Translations under genes and position numbers: made by a program
Source: a virus
Direction: 5' to 3' (one strand)
DNA: 64,000 nt
Virus record (IMG/VR): IMGVR_UViG_3300047560_000767
Span: 1 to 64,000 of that record
Notes under the pieces: model-generated
The model's database searches: none
What the model saw: only the letters and a program-made list of their open reading frames with translations
What the model was told of the DNA's origin: nothing
Shown: positions 1,257 through 45,936 of the stretch, piece after piece
Layout of the letters: each line of letters starts with the position of its first letter
Numbering within the stretch: the stretch's first letter is position 1

Positions 1257-1329
1257 CTGGGGCGGCAGGTCTCGATCCTGCGACATTTCGATTAACAGTC
1301 GAATGTTCTGCCAACTGAACTACGCCCCA
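1257..1329 (-). tRNA. tRNA-Asn (anticodon GUU)
   Basis: Acceptor TGGGGCG/CGCCCCA, anticodon stem TTCGA/TCGAA with loop CTGTTAA, T arm GCAGGATCGAGACCTGC, discriminator G. Its first 10 bases are also the last codons and TAG stop of the metallopeptidase gene. Confidence 0.92.
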
Positions 1330-2531
1330 TCGTTAGTACTTATTTTAGGCATATACCCATCAAAGTACTGTGAATAAAACCATCGTACATAATCTTGTGC
1401 TTCTGTGTAAAAATCATCTACACTTTCACCAAAATATGATTCAAATAGTGTTACCCAATCAGCGGAGAAACTTCTTGCTCCTGCTACAACCTTGTAGAAA
1501 TCTAGATACTTTGTAATACCAAATTTTTCTACAACAAATGCACTTACAATTGCACCCTGCTGATACTCTCCAACATCTCCACAAAATTGATTTCCATAAA
1601 CTCTGCTAGAGACACCTTCAAGTTTTCTAAAATCAAAACCAGTATCTGGCTTTGTTCCTAGTTGTGATACTATTATATCAAAAGAATTCTTGTCTGTCAA
1701 CTTATTTGCTAAAGAAAGTGCAATAAAGTTTGCACCACCTTCAACATACCAGCAAGGAAGATTTTCAGTTTCTTTTAGATTTAAATTATACTGCACTTGA
1801 TGAAATGTTTCGTGCATTGCAGTAATCATTAGGTGCAAATGTAATGGCAAGTTTGGATTTCCAGCATAAGTAATAATCAGATTATTGCCCTCAATTGTAG
1901 CCCAAGCACCACTTGTGTTTGGATTAGAGTCCCCGAGTGGAAAGAATCTATCAATTGGCTGTGCTTGTAAGAATGTATATGAAATTACTCCATTATTATA
2001 TAAATCTTTCCACGCAGTATTAGCATAAATATTGCTATATGCACCTATCACATAAATCTTTTTACCATCTGCAAAGGTATTTCCAAAAGCATTAATTGTA
2101 GCATTTGTGCCATTAGTTAACCAATCACGAAATTTTTGTGGCATTGCTGGATCAAAATTATACGATATTGGAACATTTTTATTACCCTGAATAGAAGAAA
2201 CACTGTTCATGGCATCATAGAATGCCTGCATTCTTGGATCTATTGTCGGTGTTGATACAACTACTGGGACTGGCTTTGGTGTAACAATAGGTTCCTGTGT
2301 ATTGGTAACAGGAGTTACAACTGGATTAACAGCATTTTGTACCGATACTGTAGATTTAGGTGCAGGTTGTGCTACCCAACGATATACAGTACCAACTTTT
2401 TTACATACCTGGCCATTCTTTACAAGATTAACTTGCTTACTTAAACAAGTTTTAGTAGGTGCTGCTTCTGCTGTAGGACTAACCCCTAGCATCAAAGAAG
2501 TTGCTATTGCCAAACCAAAAAATTTTTTCAT
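1320..2531 (-). CDS. Secreted zinc metallopeptidase-like protein
   Basis: The 403-residue protein begins with a typical signal peptide (MKKFFGLAIATSLMLG...AEA, cleavage near residue 24). A short two-Cys segment and a Pro/Thr/Val-rich linker follow to about residue 95. The C-terminal half carries H240-E-T-F-H244 and, 20 residues on, E264 in YVEGGA, the HExxH...E zinc layout of gluzincin-like peptidases. It should act outside the cell or on the cell wall. It may modify the host surface or be a moron. The gene ends inside tRNA-Asn. The start is the only one that preserves the signal peptide; the Shine-Dalgarno (AAAGGG) is very close to the ATG. Confidence 0.75.
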   Translation of the reverse strand: MKKFFGLAIATSLMLGVSPTAEAAPTKTCLSKQVNLVKNGQVCKKVGTVYRWVAQPAPKSTVSVQNAVNPVVTPVTNTQEPIVTPKPVPVVVSTPTIDPRMQAFYDAMNSVSSIQGNKNVPISYNFDPAMPQKFRDWLTNGTNATINAFGNTFADGKKIYVIGAYSNIYANTAWKDLYNNGVISYTFLQAQPIDRFFPLGDSNPNTSGAWATIEGNNLIITYAGNPNLPLHLHLMITAMHETFHQVQYNLNLKETENLPCWYVEGGANFIALSLANKLTDKNSFDIIVSQLGTKPDTGFDFRKLEGVSSRVYGNQFCGDVGEYQQGAIVSAFVVEKFGITKYLDFYKVVAGARSFSADWVTLFESYFGESVDDFYTEAQDYVRWFYSQYFDGYMPKISTNDGA

Positions 2532-2772: not shown

Positions 2773-2801
2773 AGTATAACATCAAGTCCCGACAATGTCA
2801 A
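2773..2801 (-). promoter_or_regulatory. Promoter TTGACA-17-TATACT, leaderless
   Basis: -35 TTGACA (2796-2801), 17-nt spacer, TGT then -10 TATACT (2773-2778). The ATG at 2767 begins 6 nt after the -10, so transcription should start at or next to the start codon. Confidence 0.8.
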
Positions 2802-3306
2802 CAGGACCTTGGCAAGAAGTTGAAAATTTTATGGCTGCACTTACAGCCTTTTGCACACGCTTCCTTGTATCTTTTAAACTTTCAGTTGCATGCATAGATC
2901 CATATGCATATTCAGCACCTGACCCCATAGCAATATAGTCATGCATATATTGGTTTAAAGACATATCCGCAGCATTGTGTTCATATATTTTTCCACGAAT
3001 ACAAATTAATAATCCAAAATCTGAATCATTAGAAACATCTACCCACCAGTTTTCATAAAATACACGTAATGCAATAAGAAAATCTGTATACATAAACTTA
3101 TCTAAGTCAGTTCCTTTTGGTGTAGGTGGCTTGAAATTATATTTCATTCTATCGCCATCCATGGAACCACAATATCCAAAAAGATATTCTCCACTTTTCC
3201 AAACCTTTGGGCTTGTTAGTGACATTATTAAATTATTTTCAGATGCTCCACGGTCACCAGCCATGTAGATCTTTTCACCCTGACGTGCAGCAACAATACA
3301 AGTCAC
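2782..3306 (-). CDS. HslV/proteasome-like Ntn-hydrolase peptidase
   Basis: 174 residues, the length of bacterial HslV. It starts GTG-ACT, so removal of Met exposes Thr1. Counting from that Thr, Asp17 (in MAGDRGAS) and Lys33 (in SPKVWKSG) fall exactly at the catalytic positions of the proteasome beta/HslV family. IAMGSGAEYAYGS corresponds to the conserved GSG segment. There is no propeptide, as in HslV. No HslU, Mpa/ARC or other AAA+ partner is visible in this window, so it may work alone, recruit a host unfoldase, or act in capsid or host-protein turnover. It has its own consensus promoter and a Shine-Dalgarno AGAAGGGG 6 nt before the GTG. Confidence 0.82.
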   Translation of the reverse strand: MTCIVAARQGEKIYMAGDRGASENNLIMSLTSPKVWKSGEYLFGYCGSMDGDRMKYNFKPPTPKGTDLDKFMYTDFLIALRVFYENWWVDVSNDSDFGLLICIRGKIYEHNAADMSLNQYMHDYIAMGSGAEYAYGSMHATESLKDTRKRVQKAVSAAIKFSTSCQGPVDIVGT

Positions 3307-3356
3307 AAAAAACCCCTTCTAGATAGATATCCATTATACCATTACCTAGAAGGGGT
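3307..3356 (-). terminator. Intrinsic terminator enclosing a promoter
   Basis: On the minus strand ACCCCTTCTAG (3356-3346) pairs perfectly with CTAGAAGGGGT (3322-3312), followed by T6. The 23-nt loop contains the -10 box of the next gene. The 3' arm is also that gene's Shine-Dalgarno. Confidence 0.8.
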
Positions 3357-3372: not shown

Positions 3373-3672
3373 TTATACTGCTTTTGACTTTGCTCTACGC
3401 TTTTCAACAACCATATCTTCTACAGTTACTGCATTTTTATCTGTTGTAGAGAAAGCAGAATTAATCTCATCTGCTGTCAATCTTCCATCATCCATAAATG
3501 CACGAGCCAACTTTTCAACAACTGCTGCCACTGCAGTTAGTCCTGCTACGGTTATAGCAGTTACTGTATCAATACCAGCGATTGCTCCAGCACCGATAAC
3601 TGCTAGGCCGTTTGCTGCAAAAACTGCAACAATACGCATGAGGATGTTCCAAATATTTTTTACACCGTTCAT
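3373..3672 (-). CDS. Putative holin
   Basis: 99 residues with a hydrophobic segment at about 10-33 and a second at about 36-53, then a charged C-terminal tail (KRRAKSKAV). The pattern (two helices, Gly/Ala-rich, followed by EKLARAFMDDGRLTADEI) is typical of holin-like proteins in actinobacteriophages. It should open the cytoplasmic membrane for endolysin release. It lies 2 nt downstream of a second small membrane protein and is followed by a strong terminator. No endolysin is adjacent; the nearest muralytic candidate in this window is the plus-strand gene at 62.4 kb. Confidence 0.6.
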   Translation of the reverse strand: MNGVKNIWNILMRIVAVFAANGLAVIGAGAIAGIDTVTAITVAGLTAVAAVVEKLARAFMDDGRLTADEINSAFSTTDKNAVTVEDMVVEKRRAKSKAV

Positions 3673-3674
3673 AT

Positions 3675-3857
3675 TTATTCCTCCCCTCTATGTCTGATTG
3701 GGCTAGTTAGTATCCAAATAATTGTTGTTGCTATGATTCCATAACCAACGACAACCTTTGCACTACCGTCCAAAACTACCCAGGCAATAAACATTCCAAG
3801 GAGAGTCCATGCCTGCTCAATTAGGTCATTTAATATATTCTTTATTAGTCTTACCAT
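3675..3857 (-). CDS. Small two-helix membrane protein, holin-like
   Basis: 60 residues with hydrophobic stretches at about 15-29 and 35-51, and a charged end (SPIRHRGEE). It overlaps the end of the PA14 gene by 7 nt and precedes the putative holin by 2 nt, so the two membrane proteins are probably translated together. It may be a second holin, an antiholin or a spanin-like partner. No lipobox or cysteine is visible. Confidence 0.5.
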   Translation of the reverse strand: MVRLIKNILNDLIEQAWTLLGMFIAWVVLDGSAKVVVGYGIIATTIIWILTSPIRHRGEE

Positions 3858-6475
3858 GTTTCATTTCTCCTTCTTGTGCCACCTGAGTTTGATCCACCAC
3901 TTGAACCACCAGATGATGGGGCACTAGGTGCTCCACCTCCAGTAGCCAAACCAACAGCATTCAATGCTGCTCCTGTTGCCACAACTGTTGCCACAACCAT
4001 ATGCGTGGCTTCTTTTCTTTCTCCTGGAGTCATGTCTGCTCCAATACTTCCAAGTGCTGCTAGTGCTGCTCCTGGATCTGTTAACGCTGCTTGTAATAAT
4101 GCACCTGGGTCTTGTACCAATTCAACATTTGCTGCGACTTCAGCAGTAATAACTAAAACTTCGCCAGATTCTGATGTTCTAACTGCTACAGGTGTTTCTG
4201 GTGGAAGATCAGAATAAGAAACTCCCGATGCTTTAATTTCTGATGCAGAGAGAGATTCTCCTGGCTTAAGATCTGCCACTAATGCGGTAACTACTGCTGC
4301 AACTTCTTCTTTAGATAATTCTTTACCTGCTTTTGCATCTGCTGCTATTTTATCTAACTTTGCCTCCGCTGCTGCTTTGGCATCCGCTTCGGCTTTAGCA
4401 GCATCTGCTTTTGCCTGAGCATCTTTAGCAGCCTGATCTTTTGCAGCCTTATCTGCAGCAGCCTTATCTGCATCTGCTTTAGCCTGAGCCTCAGCCTGTG
4501 CCTTAGCATCCGCTTCTGCTTTTGCTTGTGCCTCAGCCTGTGCCTTTGCTTCTGCTTCTGCTGCTAATCTGTCAGCCTCTGCTTTGGCTGCAGCATCTGC
4601 TTCTGCTTTGGCTTTAGCCTCTGCTTCTGCTGCTGCTTGTTCAGCAGCGATTCTATCTGCTTCGGCTTTGGCTGCTGCTTGCTCTGCTGCAATTCTATCT
4701 GCTTCTGCCTTTGCTGCAGCCTCCGCTGCTGCTTTGGCATCTGCTTCGGCTTTGGCCTGGGCTTCTGCTGCTGCTTTAGCCTGGGCTTCTGCAAGTGCTG
4801 CTGCTTCTGCTGCTGCCTGTGCTTGTGCCTGTGCTATTGCTGCTTGTCTTGCAGCCTCTGCAGCCAATGCAGCCTGTCTTGCTGCTTCTGCTTCAGCAGC
4901 CAATCTTTGTTGCTCTGCATAATAGTTAATTGTAATTTGAGTAGCATTTGTCATTGCAGTTACTGCTTCTTGAACCTGAACCGTAGTAGTATCAGCCAAA
5001 GCATTTGCTGTTTGCAAAGAAATTGTTAGGTTTTGATTTGCAGTTGTTAGGTTTTCTTGAGCAATTGTTAGGTTTTGATTTGCAGTTGTTAGGTTTTCAG
5101 AGGCAGTTTGAACTGCAGCACGAGTATCCCAAGCAGCCTGTTGAATCGGAGCCTGAATAGATTCTTGTACCATCATGTTTTGGTTTGCATCTACGTATGT
5201 TTGGTATGCTATATCAGCATTTGTTTGTGCGGTATTTAGTTCACTCTGAAGAGTATTTAAAATTTGTGTTTCATTATTTAATGTAGTAATGGCAGATTGA
5301 AGTGCTGCCTTTTGTTCTGGTGTAGCGGAAGATGTACTAAATTCTGATCCTGGAACAACTTGCCATCCACTATCTGTATATCTAAGTAATGCTACATTAG
5401 CACCTCCGCCATTTTCGTAATACCACATTTGGAATGTTTTACCAACTCCAGCAGTTGTTTGAACTGTGGCAGTTGATCCGCCACCGCCTTTATCATACCA
5501 ATCATTAATAACCAACTGTCCATCTAAATAAAGTTTTACCCCATCATCTGCTGGAGCAGTAATCCATTGGGTTCCTGTATATTGAGGTGTCCAAATTCCT
5601 TCCCACTTAACCTGAAAATCATCATTGGCTCCTGCAACTGGACCACCACTTCCCCATTGTTCATTAATACCATTTGTGTCAGTAGTTGTGGTCATTACAT
5701 ATCCAGCACCCAATGGTGGAGCATTGTTATATCCAGTATCTTTGTAAATAGTTTCTTTAAGACCAGGAGTAGTGTTTGCATCTACTACAGCCTGTGCAGC
5801 ATCTTTATTTGATTGTGCTGTTTCTACAACTGGAACCTGTGCATCAACCGCAGCCTGTGCTGGGGCAATTGCTGCTTGTGCTACATCATTTGCATCTCTT
5901 GCTGCATCGTTTGCTTCTTGTGCTGCAATAGTAATGGGTGTTTGTGTATTAAGATTGGTCTCTGCAACTTGATTATTTGATACCGCTGTATCATAGGCTG
6001 TTTGGGATGTAGATAATTCTGTAGTTCTTACATCAACAGTTGCAGTTGCTGAATCAACTATCTGCTGGTTTGCCTCAACAAGACTGATTGCATTTTGAGC
6101 ATTGGCTATAGCAGCATTAGCCTCTTGAATTTGTATCCCTGCATCTGATACCGCTGTAGATATAGGCTGTTGCGTGGTAGCAATAGATATTGCAGTTTGA
6201 GTATCAGTATTTGGCACATTAGCCTGTATAGACTCTATAATGGCCGTAGCCTGAGCCTGTGATTCTGTACTAAGGGTCGTAGTTGCTGAGTCTATCTTAG
6301 CCTGAATTGTCTCTACTGTGACTGCAGTAACTGTACTGGTATCAACTGTAGATGTTGGATCTGGACTAACTTGAACAGTAATTTCGTCAGCATTTGCTTG
6401 ATCCGTTGGGGAAAGGAAAAGCCACAAACCTACTAATAGGCCTAATGCTGCTAATCTTAAAGTTATTCTATAAAT
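3851..6475 (-). CDS. Exported PA14-domain protein with Ala-rich coiled coil
   Basis: About 874 residues if translation begins at an ATT at 6475. The conventional TTG at 6427 would cut a signal peptide in half: the segment upstream reads RITLRLAALGLLVGLW and is followed by a Gln-Ala-Asn-Ala cleavage-like site. A Shine-Dalgarno AGGAG lies 9 nt before the ATT. After an Ala/Thr-rich helical region, residues about 238-376 form a PA14 domain (WEGIWTPQYTGT, DDGVKLYLDGQLVINDW), a carbohydrate-binding fold. A long TolA-like Ala/Glu/Lys coiled coil spans about 516-716. The tail is Gly/Ser-rich and ends RRRNETW. It probably sits at the cell surface or on the virion. Host binding, wall anchoring or superinfection exclusion are all possible. 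Confidence 0.7.
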   Translation of the reverse strand: MYRITLRLAALGLLVGLWLFLSPTDQANADEITVQVSPDPTSTVDTSTVTAVTVETIQAKIDSATTTLSTESQAQATAIIESIQANVPNTDTQTAISIATTQQPISTAVSDAGIQIQEANAAIANAQNAISLVEANQQIVDSATATVDVRTTELSTSQTAYDTAVSNNQVAETNLNTQTPITIAAQEANDAARDANDVAQAAIAPAQAAVDAQVPVVETAQSNKDAAQAVVDANTTPGLKETIYKDTGYNNAPPLGAGYVMTTTTDTNGINEQWGSGGPVAGANDDFQVKWEGIWTPQYTGTQWITAPADDGVKLYLDGQLVINDWYDKGGGGSTATVQTTAGVGKTFQMWYYENGGGANVALLRYTDSGWQVVPGSEFSTSSATPEQKAALQSAITTLNNETQILNTLQSELNTAQTNADIAYQTYVDANQNMMVQESIQAPIQQAAWDTRAAVQTASENLTTANQNLTIAQENLTTANQNLTISLQTANALADTTTVQVQEAVTAMTNATQITINYYAEQQRLAAEAEAARQAALAAEAARQAAIAQAQAQAAAEAAALAEAQAKAAAEAQAKAEADAKAAAEAAAKAEADRIAAEQAAAKAEADRIAAEQAAAEAEAKAKAEADAAAKAEADRLAAEAEAKAQAEAQAKAEADAKAQAEAQAKADADKAAADKAAKDQAAKDAQAKADAAKAEADAKAAAEAKLDKIAADAKAGKELSKEEVAAVVTALVADLKPGESLSASEIKASGVSYSDLPPETPVAVRTSESGEVLVITAEVAANVELVQDPGALLQAALTDPGAALAALGSIGADMTPGERKEATHMVVATVVATGAALNAVGLATGGGAPSAPSSGGSSGGSNSGGTRRRNETW

Positions 6476-44577: not shown

Positions 44578-45936
44578 TTATTTAAATAAGTCGGCTGTTT
44601 TGAGGAAACGTCCGCCCCATAAGGATTTTTCAATCATTTCTGATTGATCCTGCACGATCTCGCCTAGATCGCCAGACTTTCGGAAAGCCGTATCTGCTTC
44701 TACTGCATCTACACGCTTACCAAACTTTTGAACTGCATCTCTTGTAGAAGAAATATCTTTGGCAACTTCTTCAAGAGACTGTCTTACTGTATCAGCAGTA
44801 ACCGCTGAAGACTTCAGTACTTCTACCTCTGCCTGCAATGATTTAACTGTTGATAAGAGATCGCTAAAGGCTGATGTGATTGTATTATTTAGTTCAGCAA
44901 TTGACTGAGCAACTACATCATCTGACTTTTTTGCTTTCATCTCTTCTTCTTCAGCATTTGGATTTCCTGCTTCTGACTCTTGGTCAGCAGCATCTTCCTT
45001 ATCTGGATTTGCAGCCTTTTCAGTTTCTTCAGCATCTTTGGTTTTTTCAGAATCTTCTGAATCCATTGTTGCTGCTTTCTCTGTTTCGACTGCTGGAGTT
45101 TCAGCAACAGCCTCTGGAGCGATTTCTTCTGACGCCTGAACATCTGTTGTTTCTTCAACAACTGTTGTATCTTCTGTCATCGGATCTACCTCCTTAATAG
45201 TCTTAGCATCAATGCCTTTAGCACTATCAACTAAGATTTTGACTATATCCATTTTTTCGTTGTCGTTTTTTTCAACGAAACCTATATTTTTCATCTCTGT
45301 GCCATTTACTGGACTTACTACAGATTCTTCATCTGATAACATGATGATTCCTGATTGTTCATCATAAAAAACATTTTCAAGGTCTACATCTACGTTAACG
45401 CTCTTAACTACGTCAACACCATCTACCTTTTCTACAGACATGATATTTGCAAATTGATTTGCTGGTGAGTCAACTAATGACAATTCTACCAAATCATAAT
45501 CCTTAATAATTCTAATTGTTGAGTCTGACTTTTCATCATATCCGTCATCCCACTTATTCATTCTACCACCAATTGAAAAACCAGTGTAGGTATTATCTAA
45601 AACTTTTTCCCAGCAATCCTGAGCACCCTTTGAAATATATGCAGATACAAAAACTCCATTATAGAACTTTTTGCTTTCTGGATCAAAGTACTTATCTTGT
45701 TTGAATGCCACCATTTTGCCAACTGCAGATGGTTGATGCATTTCACGAATGTTACCTCTAAAAGCAGAAAAAGCCTTTAGAGATGCTTCTGCAGTAACGA
45801 TGTCGCCCTGCTTATCAACGTTGTCAAGGGATGCGAAACCAGAGACGATACGTCTCTCCTTATCAACCTTCGCAAATGGAAGGGAAAGCCTAACTGAATC
45901 CCCATCGGTATTCCAATGAGCCTTTGATATAGTCAT
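44578..45936 (-). CDS. Prohead protease fused to a scaffold-like domain
   Basis: 452 residues. Residues 1-~170 are the protease: GFASLDNVDKQGDIV, His in REMHQPSAVGK, Ser in TGFSIGGRMN, and DLVELSLVDSPANQ. The remainder is Glu/Ala/Lys/Ser-rich coiled coil (around 250-450), like a delta/scaffold domain. It would shape the prohead and then cleave itself and the capsid N-arm. The ATG is preceded by -10 boxes, with no Shine-Dalgarno. Confidence 0.87.
   Translation of the reverse strand: MTISKAHWNTDGDSVRLSLPFAKVDKERRIVSGFASLDNVDKQGDIVTAEASLKAFSAFRGNIREMHQPSAVGKMVAFKQDKYFDPESKKFYNGVFVSAYISKGAQDCWEKVLDNTYTGFSIGGRMNKWDDGYDEKSDSTIRIIKDYDLVELSLVDSPANQFANIMSVEKVDGVDVVKSVNVDVDLENVFYDEQSGIIMLSDEESVVSPVNGTEMKNIGFVEKNDNEKMDIVKILVDSAKGIDAKTIKEVDPMTEDTTVVEETTDVQASEEIAPEAVAETPAVETEKAATMDSEDSEKTKDAEETEKAANPDKEDAADQESEAGNPNAEEEEMKAKKSDDVVAQSIAELNNTITSAFSDLLSTVKSLQAEVEVLKSSAVTADTVRQSLEEVAKDISSTRDAVQKFGKRVDAVEADTAFRKSGDLGEIVQDQSEMIEKSLWGGRFLKTADLFK

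Follow-up and report, generated by a model that had tools for sequence, protein, structure and literature searches.

A phage-borne group I proteasome-like peptidase gene with a promoter wrapped in an inverted repeat

Two lines of earlier work bear on the locus described here. Proteasome homologs were surveyed by Fuchs, Alva and Lupas in 2021 (PMC8665760), whose group I includes the phage-borne PPH and AAH; the group I homologs share the Thr1-Asp17-Lys33 triad, are made without a propeptide and have no AAA+ partner that genomic context could reveal. The survey found no AAH in phages of Actinobacteria, and its Table 1 has no mark for HslV in that phylum. This was the sole relevant paper that we found in the literature on phage HslV function, and its naming of the phage homologs came without a function, a partner or a telling context. 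The second line concerns gene expression in phage T4, where the ribosome sites of genes e, soc, 49 and I-TevI are hidden in long early transcripts; at gene e the RNA from a nearby late promoter lacks the 5' part of the structure and is well translated, and the hiding lowers lysozyme synthesis 100-fold (PMC3014915). The protein studied here is of a kind already described, being one of the group I proteasome homologs carried by phages; the novelty lies upstream of its gene, in a promoter wrapped in an inverted repeat.

The sequence analyzed, hereafter the window, comprises positions 1-64,000 of the IMG/VR record IMGVR_UViG_3300047560_000767, which is 70,355 bases long in full. A preliminary description had placed an HslV-like peptidase gene at 2782-3306. 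The open reading frame is real, and its strand needed correcting to minus: it reads from 3306 down to 2782, begins with GTG and encodes 174 amino acids, or 173 once the methionine is removed, the mature N-terminus being TCIVAARQGEKIYMAGD17RGASENNLIMSLTSPK33. In mature numbering the residues of interest are Thr1, Asp17, Lys33, G127-S128-G129 and Asp169. The exact T1-D17-K33 geometry claimed earlier is thus present, as are the G-S-G motif and the likeness in length to HslV, whose chains have 174-175 residues. Among the 828 in-frame starts in the window that each open at least 60 amino acids, the T/S1-D17-K33 spacing is unique to this reading frame.

Comparison with relatives indicates which of these residues matter most. 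Thr1 and Lys33 are invariant in 118 of 118 distinct family members, and the loss of these two residues, named beforehand as the observation that would speak against the assignment, was not seen. The G-S-G motif at 127-129 and Asp169 are likewise invariant in the 118. Position 17 varies, with Asp in 92 of the 118 and Glu in the other 26; an exact Asp17 is not obligatory across the family. The presence of Glu at this position takes at least seven changes on the protein tree, which is unusual for a catalytic residue. Against seven relatives the gene has dN/dS values of 0.02-0.11, and is under strong purifying selection.

The AlphaFold model of the peptidase (pLDDT 92, pTM 0.88) has helices at 50-57, 68-87, 131-140 and 147-161 and a final strand at 169-173. 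It displays the Ntn sandwich core with two helix pairs and lacks the C-terminal S12/H5 elements, an arrangement that, together with an N-terminal Thr or Ser1, Asp17 and Lys33 (exact in the window protein), defines group I. BPH ranks first in Foldseek with a TM score of 0.79, while VIA-align gives Z scores of 19.1 to the HslV of S. aureus, 18.5 to BPH and 17-19 over the HslV chains, and aligns residue 2 of the model (Thr1) with residue 1 of BPH and of several HslV chains. These matches to BPH and HslV extend over the full length of the model and bear out the proposed Ntn-hydrolase fold. Profile searches against the Ntn-hydrolase families agree: the PHROG 1040 'peptidase HslV family' profile matches residues 1-172 with an E value of 6.4e-22, and a profile built from 17 family members matches BPH (5ovu) along its whole length (2-184), ahead of HslV and proteasome beta chains. 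The window protein falls slightly below the cut-off of the Pfam Proteasome model (20.1 against 22.4 bits), which one relative (L043) exceeds with 30.6 bits. The fold and the catalytic residues are, we consider, almost certainly as assigned, and sequence and model together give good support to placing the protein in the N-terminal-threonine type of the proteasome-like family, in group I on the BPH/HslV side, without a propeptide. That the product is an active threonine peptidase is probable, and its assembly as a double ring is a reasonable expectation held with somewhat less assurance.

Within group I, BPH of Thiobacillus and Cupriavidus (5ovs, 5ovu; PMC5777263) is the best match by Foldseek and by profile; it has the same catalytic set, and no partner unfoldase is known for it either. 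It is, however, a bacterial gene product only about 19-20% identical to the window peptidase, and has an acidic inner cavity and a tetradecameric assembly of its own, our comparison being one of sequence and of a monomer model. With PHROG 1040/AAH, CPH and PPH the window peptidase shares the Thr1-Asp17-Lys33 set, an Ntn core without a C-terminal extension, the lack of a propeptide, and encoding by tailed phages with no AAA+ partner adjacent; the window family differs in belonging to actinophages and in being 25-32% identical to members outside its own group. Relatives at roughly 25-33% identity occur in annotated phages of Salmonella, Escherichia, Vibrio, Aeromonas and others, with one Actinomycetia phage also among the carriers, and rhizobial and Streptomyces plasmid relatives came up at 26-30% identity. 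PPH has about 140 residues and lacks the second helix; since the window peptidase has 174 residues and, in the model, retains this helix (68-87), membership in PPH was ruled out. When genome contigs were scanned with the family profile, a single weak and partial match came up but no close bacterial copy, and the DNA of the locus had no match among annotated phages. Two of the annotated carriers have arrangements of their own: Aeromonas phage 2L372X (L255:3001-3963) carries two genes in tandem with the annotation 'peptidase HslV family', and in the Actinomycetia phage DSL-LC01 (L128:6001-6954) a WhiB gene directly follows the HslV-like gene.

Three other identities for the protein were weighed. 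The preliminary description treated it as a stand-alone phage HslV that could recruit a host ATPase; in its strict form this would be a true HslV that docks on host HslU and degrades host regulators. The likeness in fold, length and catalytic residues, with the Z scores given above, is what one would expect of such a protein, but it scores 22.6 bits against a cut-off of 157.75 and 22.9 against 137 with the two HslV equivalog models (TIGR03692 and PRK05456), the profile search puts BPH closest to it among solved structures, and HslV proper was rejected. As had been claimed, no unfoldase accompanies the gene: PF07724, PF00004 and the HslU model TIGR00390 gave no match across the 70,355-base record, which may itself be a fragment. 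The large terminase of the phage is 54% identical to those of Streptomyces phages, and WhiB was detected in nine of the ten related records tried (not in the window's own record), matching among 14 control genomes only in Corynebacterium; from these two observations the host is very probably an actinobacterium. Since HslV is unmarked in that phylum, recruitment of host HslU is unlikely, and we regard a true HslV acting in this way as improbable.

Maturation of the virion, also suggested earlier, has in its favor that phages often need a processing enzyme and that the gene has late genes around it, with the lysis genes to one side and the tRNAs to the other. The phage, however, encodes a dedicated prohead protease within its head module (44578-45936; phrog_9427, E 3e-115), which makes this role unlikely for the peptidase, and the peptidase gene has its own host-type promoter and is not expected to be expressed from upstream transcripts; a head maturation protease or other virion-processing enzyme is accordingly the least probable of the three identities. 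Connectase, a ligase, is counted among the proteasome homologs (PMC8665760), and one could envisage the window protein as a specific ligase or amidase of this style that does not degrade proteins. The two-helix insertion that marks connectase is not seen in the model, though, and the residues of the classical mechanism are retained in the 118 family members, so that a ligase or amidase also seems unlikely, if marginally less so than a true HslV. Our best guess remains a peptidase whose substrates are host factors or unfolded proteins.

The near-perfect promoter noted in the preliminary description is confirmed as a strong sigma-70-type promoter with a 12/12 match (TTGACA-17-TATAAT, with an extended TG) at 3361-3333 on the minus strand. 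It is enclosed by a hairpin, the arms of which flank the -10 element and include perfect 11-base repeats. The 5' arm, ACCCCTTCTAGGTA (3343-3356, minus), lies within the spacer between -35 and -10; the 3' arm, TATCTAGAAGGGGT (3312-3325, minus), contains the Shine-Dalgarno sequence AAGGGG (3318-3313), and a run of six T (3307-3312, minus) immediately precedes the start codon, giving the hairpin what reads as a terminator-like character for upstream transcripts. The RNA start is predicted near 3326, on the assumption that it lies 7 bases past the -10. As the 5' arm sits in the promoter spacer, RNA from this promoter would lack it, and folding leaves its Shine-Dalgarno sequence free; read-through RNA folds at -29.8 kcal/mol (z -4.9), and none of 200 shuffles was as good. 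Upstream on the same strand is a holin-like gene (3373-3672, minus; phrog_26427, E 1e-24; phrog_443 holin, E 1.5e-4), and the hairpin starts about 17 bases past its stop codon. Such a promoter hairpin occurs once in the window, at the peptidase gene, and Rfam finds nothing at this site.

Across relatives, a promoter comparable to that of the window is present in 127 of 132 distinct upstream regions, and the hairpin in 82 of the 132, with 58 different stem sequences. The latter rate is biased, because 80 loci were fetched by a pattern that demanded the promoter and GGGG; the set obtained without this pattern gives a fairer rate, with 28 regions bearing the hairpin and 25 the promoter only. The stem is absent while the promoter is kept in 45 of the 132 regions, from which it follows that the hairpin is not essential. 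On the protein tree its distribution is clustered and needs about 12 changes, at least six of them forced by supported branches, and the element has therefore been gained and lost repeatedly within the family. It is nevertheless closely tied to this gene: of 203 distinct promoters in the sampled loci, 31 bear such a hairpin, and all but one of these (in L081) stand before the peptidase gene.

Where the hairpin is present, both sides of the stem change while pairing is kept, and sliding the register lowers pairing from 99% to 33-67%; pairs were counted by script from the fold register, as MAFFT misaligned the hairpin arms. In 79 of the 82 hairpin regions the sense strand gives a better fold than the antisense, and the stems hold 109 G-U pairs against 2 A-C, a contrast that is partly an artifact, for the fold that sets the register disallows A-C pairs; the antisense folding test is free of this flaw. 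The better folding of the sense strand and the abundance of G-U pairs suggest that the selected form of the inverted repeat is likely to be RNA rather than a DNA operator. Judged by folding only, the 82 regions behave as T4-type leaders do, with the Shine-Dalgarno sequence unpaired at 0.02 in read-through RNA versus 0.59 in own-promoter RNA; the corresponding values in regions without the hairpin are 0.53 and 0.75. The promoters of the relatives are of the class TTGACA-17-TATAAT/TATACT, not of the T4 late type.

These data bear on what the inverted repeat is for. A DNA operator, at which a repressor would cover the promoter, accords with arms that flank the -10 and with the perfect 11-base repeats of the window, but a protein site would keep its letters and not merely their pairing, and with 58 different stems, many G-U pairs and the bias toward the sense strand we consider an operator very improbable. 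A far more serious contender is that the repeat is simply the intrinsic terminator of the lysis operon, overlapping the next promoter, with no separate role for the hiding of the Shine-Dalgarno sequence. The GC-rich stem followed by T6 in the window and the start of the repeat so soon after the upstream stop codon would suit this, as would the 7 bases that follow the final G run, which include at least four T in 59 of 81 relatives; yet in 17 of the 81 these bases are devoid of T, and in nearly all regions the 3' arm includes the Shine-Dalgarno region and stops a few bases short of the start codon. We therefore give the terminator-only explanation appreciable weight, though well short of an even chance. 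Termination and Shine-Dalgarno hiding are inseparable by sequence and either would shut the gene off from upstream transcripts; that the hairpin does so, by one route, the other or both, is quite likely.

We propose, as a likely overall reading of sequence and model, a group I threonine peptidase expressed through a promoter-in-hairpin switch. A polymerase arriving from the lysis genes would produce RNA in which the promoter spacer pairs with the Shine-Dalgarno region, followed by U6, and this read-through RNA would terminate or stay untranslated; RNA begun at the gene's own promoter, with the 5' arm missing, would be freely translated. The peptidase would be made when the host-type promoter fires, probably early, and would be off during late lysis read-through. 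Expression from early infection is an even call, however, as a near-consensus promoter also precedes a tail gene (38808), and a host-type promoter is thus not proof of early timing. Host methionine aminopeptidase would then strip the methionine and expose Thr1, and the subunits would assemble into two stacked rings that enclose the active sites, like those of BPH and HslV. Such an enzyme could act without a dedicated unfoldase on unfolded or small proteins or peptides, or alternatively with help from a host ATPase other than HslU.

The proposed switch resembles the leaders of T4 e, soc, 49 and I-TevI in that a hairpin conceals the ribosome site of transcripts from upstream and a promoter in or beside the 5' arm yields RNA without that arm. 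It differs from them in its housekeeping-type host promoter, where T4 uses a phage late type, in the U-run after the stem, and in the gene served, a peptidase directly after lysis genes; here, moreover, the letters vary while the pairing is kept. The SAS/ESAS elements of Cluster K mycobacteriophages (PMC3203893) are likewise inverted repeats tied to gene starts in actinophages. ESAS, in contrast, has conserved letters, lies upstream of SAS and occurs at many genes, whereas the present element has the Shine-Dalgarno sequence within one arm, varies in its letters and stands at one gene. The design amounts to a compact, reusable insulation of a gene from read-through.

Immediately downstream of the peptidase gene is a gene for a small acidic protein of 73 amino acids (2546-2767, minus) with the pattern PFCxTHDGDPYM[ST]EEExxEWxxGGDPC. 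Its promoter, TTGACA-17-TATACT (2773-2801, minus), has its -35 inside the Val-Asp-Ile codons of the peptidase, and Asp169 is consequently constrained at both the protein and the DNA level. The -10 ends 5 bases before the ATG in the window; among 75 distinct downstream regions with the small gene and its promoter, the ATG lies 6 bases past the -10 in 69 and 5 bases in 3, and the spacer is 17 bases in 74. An ATG so close to the -10 makes a leaderless mRNA probable. Of 80 loci found through the small gene alone, 57 have the peptidase gene directly adjacent, 12 have it within 1.2 kb, and 11 lack it within 3 kb. This Cys/His protein is a candidate partner of the peptidase, non-obligate and put forward tentatively; it belongs to no PHROG or Pfam family, has no tblastn match in the phage collection, and its predicted model is of low confidence (pLDDT 68). 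In some relatives (L001:8541-9392 and L002) the two genes are separated by an additional segment that carries another gene.

The survey of 2021 can thus be complemented by hundreds of phage copies with a fixed site after the lysis genes, a usual neighbor and a tight expression switch, and with place, neighbor and switch in hand the timing and role of the enzyme become testable. We suggest, more speculatively still than the partnership itself, that the locus may be a portable two-gene cassette for host takeover in actinophages, in which a peptidase that needs no unfoldase of its own and a small Cys/His partner with a nested leaderless promoter are insulated from late lysis transcripts by a hairpin element of varying letters. 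Should the protein prove to be an AAH, it would close a gap noted in the survey, which knew of no AAH gene in phages of actinobacteria (PMC8665760).

The surroundings of the peptidase gene contain other features. On the minus strand, seven tRNA genes (Thr, Glu, Leu, Trp, Asp, Gly and Asn; 406-1329) lie just downstream of the peptidase region, and a tail-fiber-like protein encoded at 3851-6427 combines a PA14 domain with long repeats rich in Ala, Glu and Lys. At 1320-2531 (minus) is the gene for a 403-residue protein that has a signal peptide and, as HETFH, the HExxH motif, and that may be a secreted metallopeptidase; this gene overlaps the end of tRNA-Asn and has a 12/12 promoter match inside it, at 1700.
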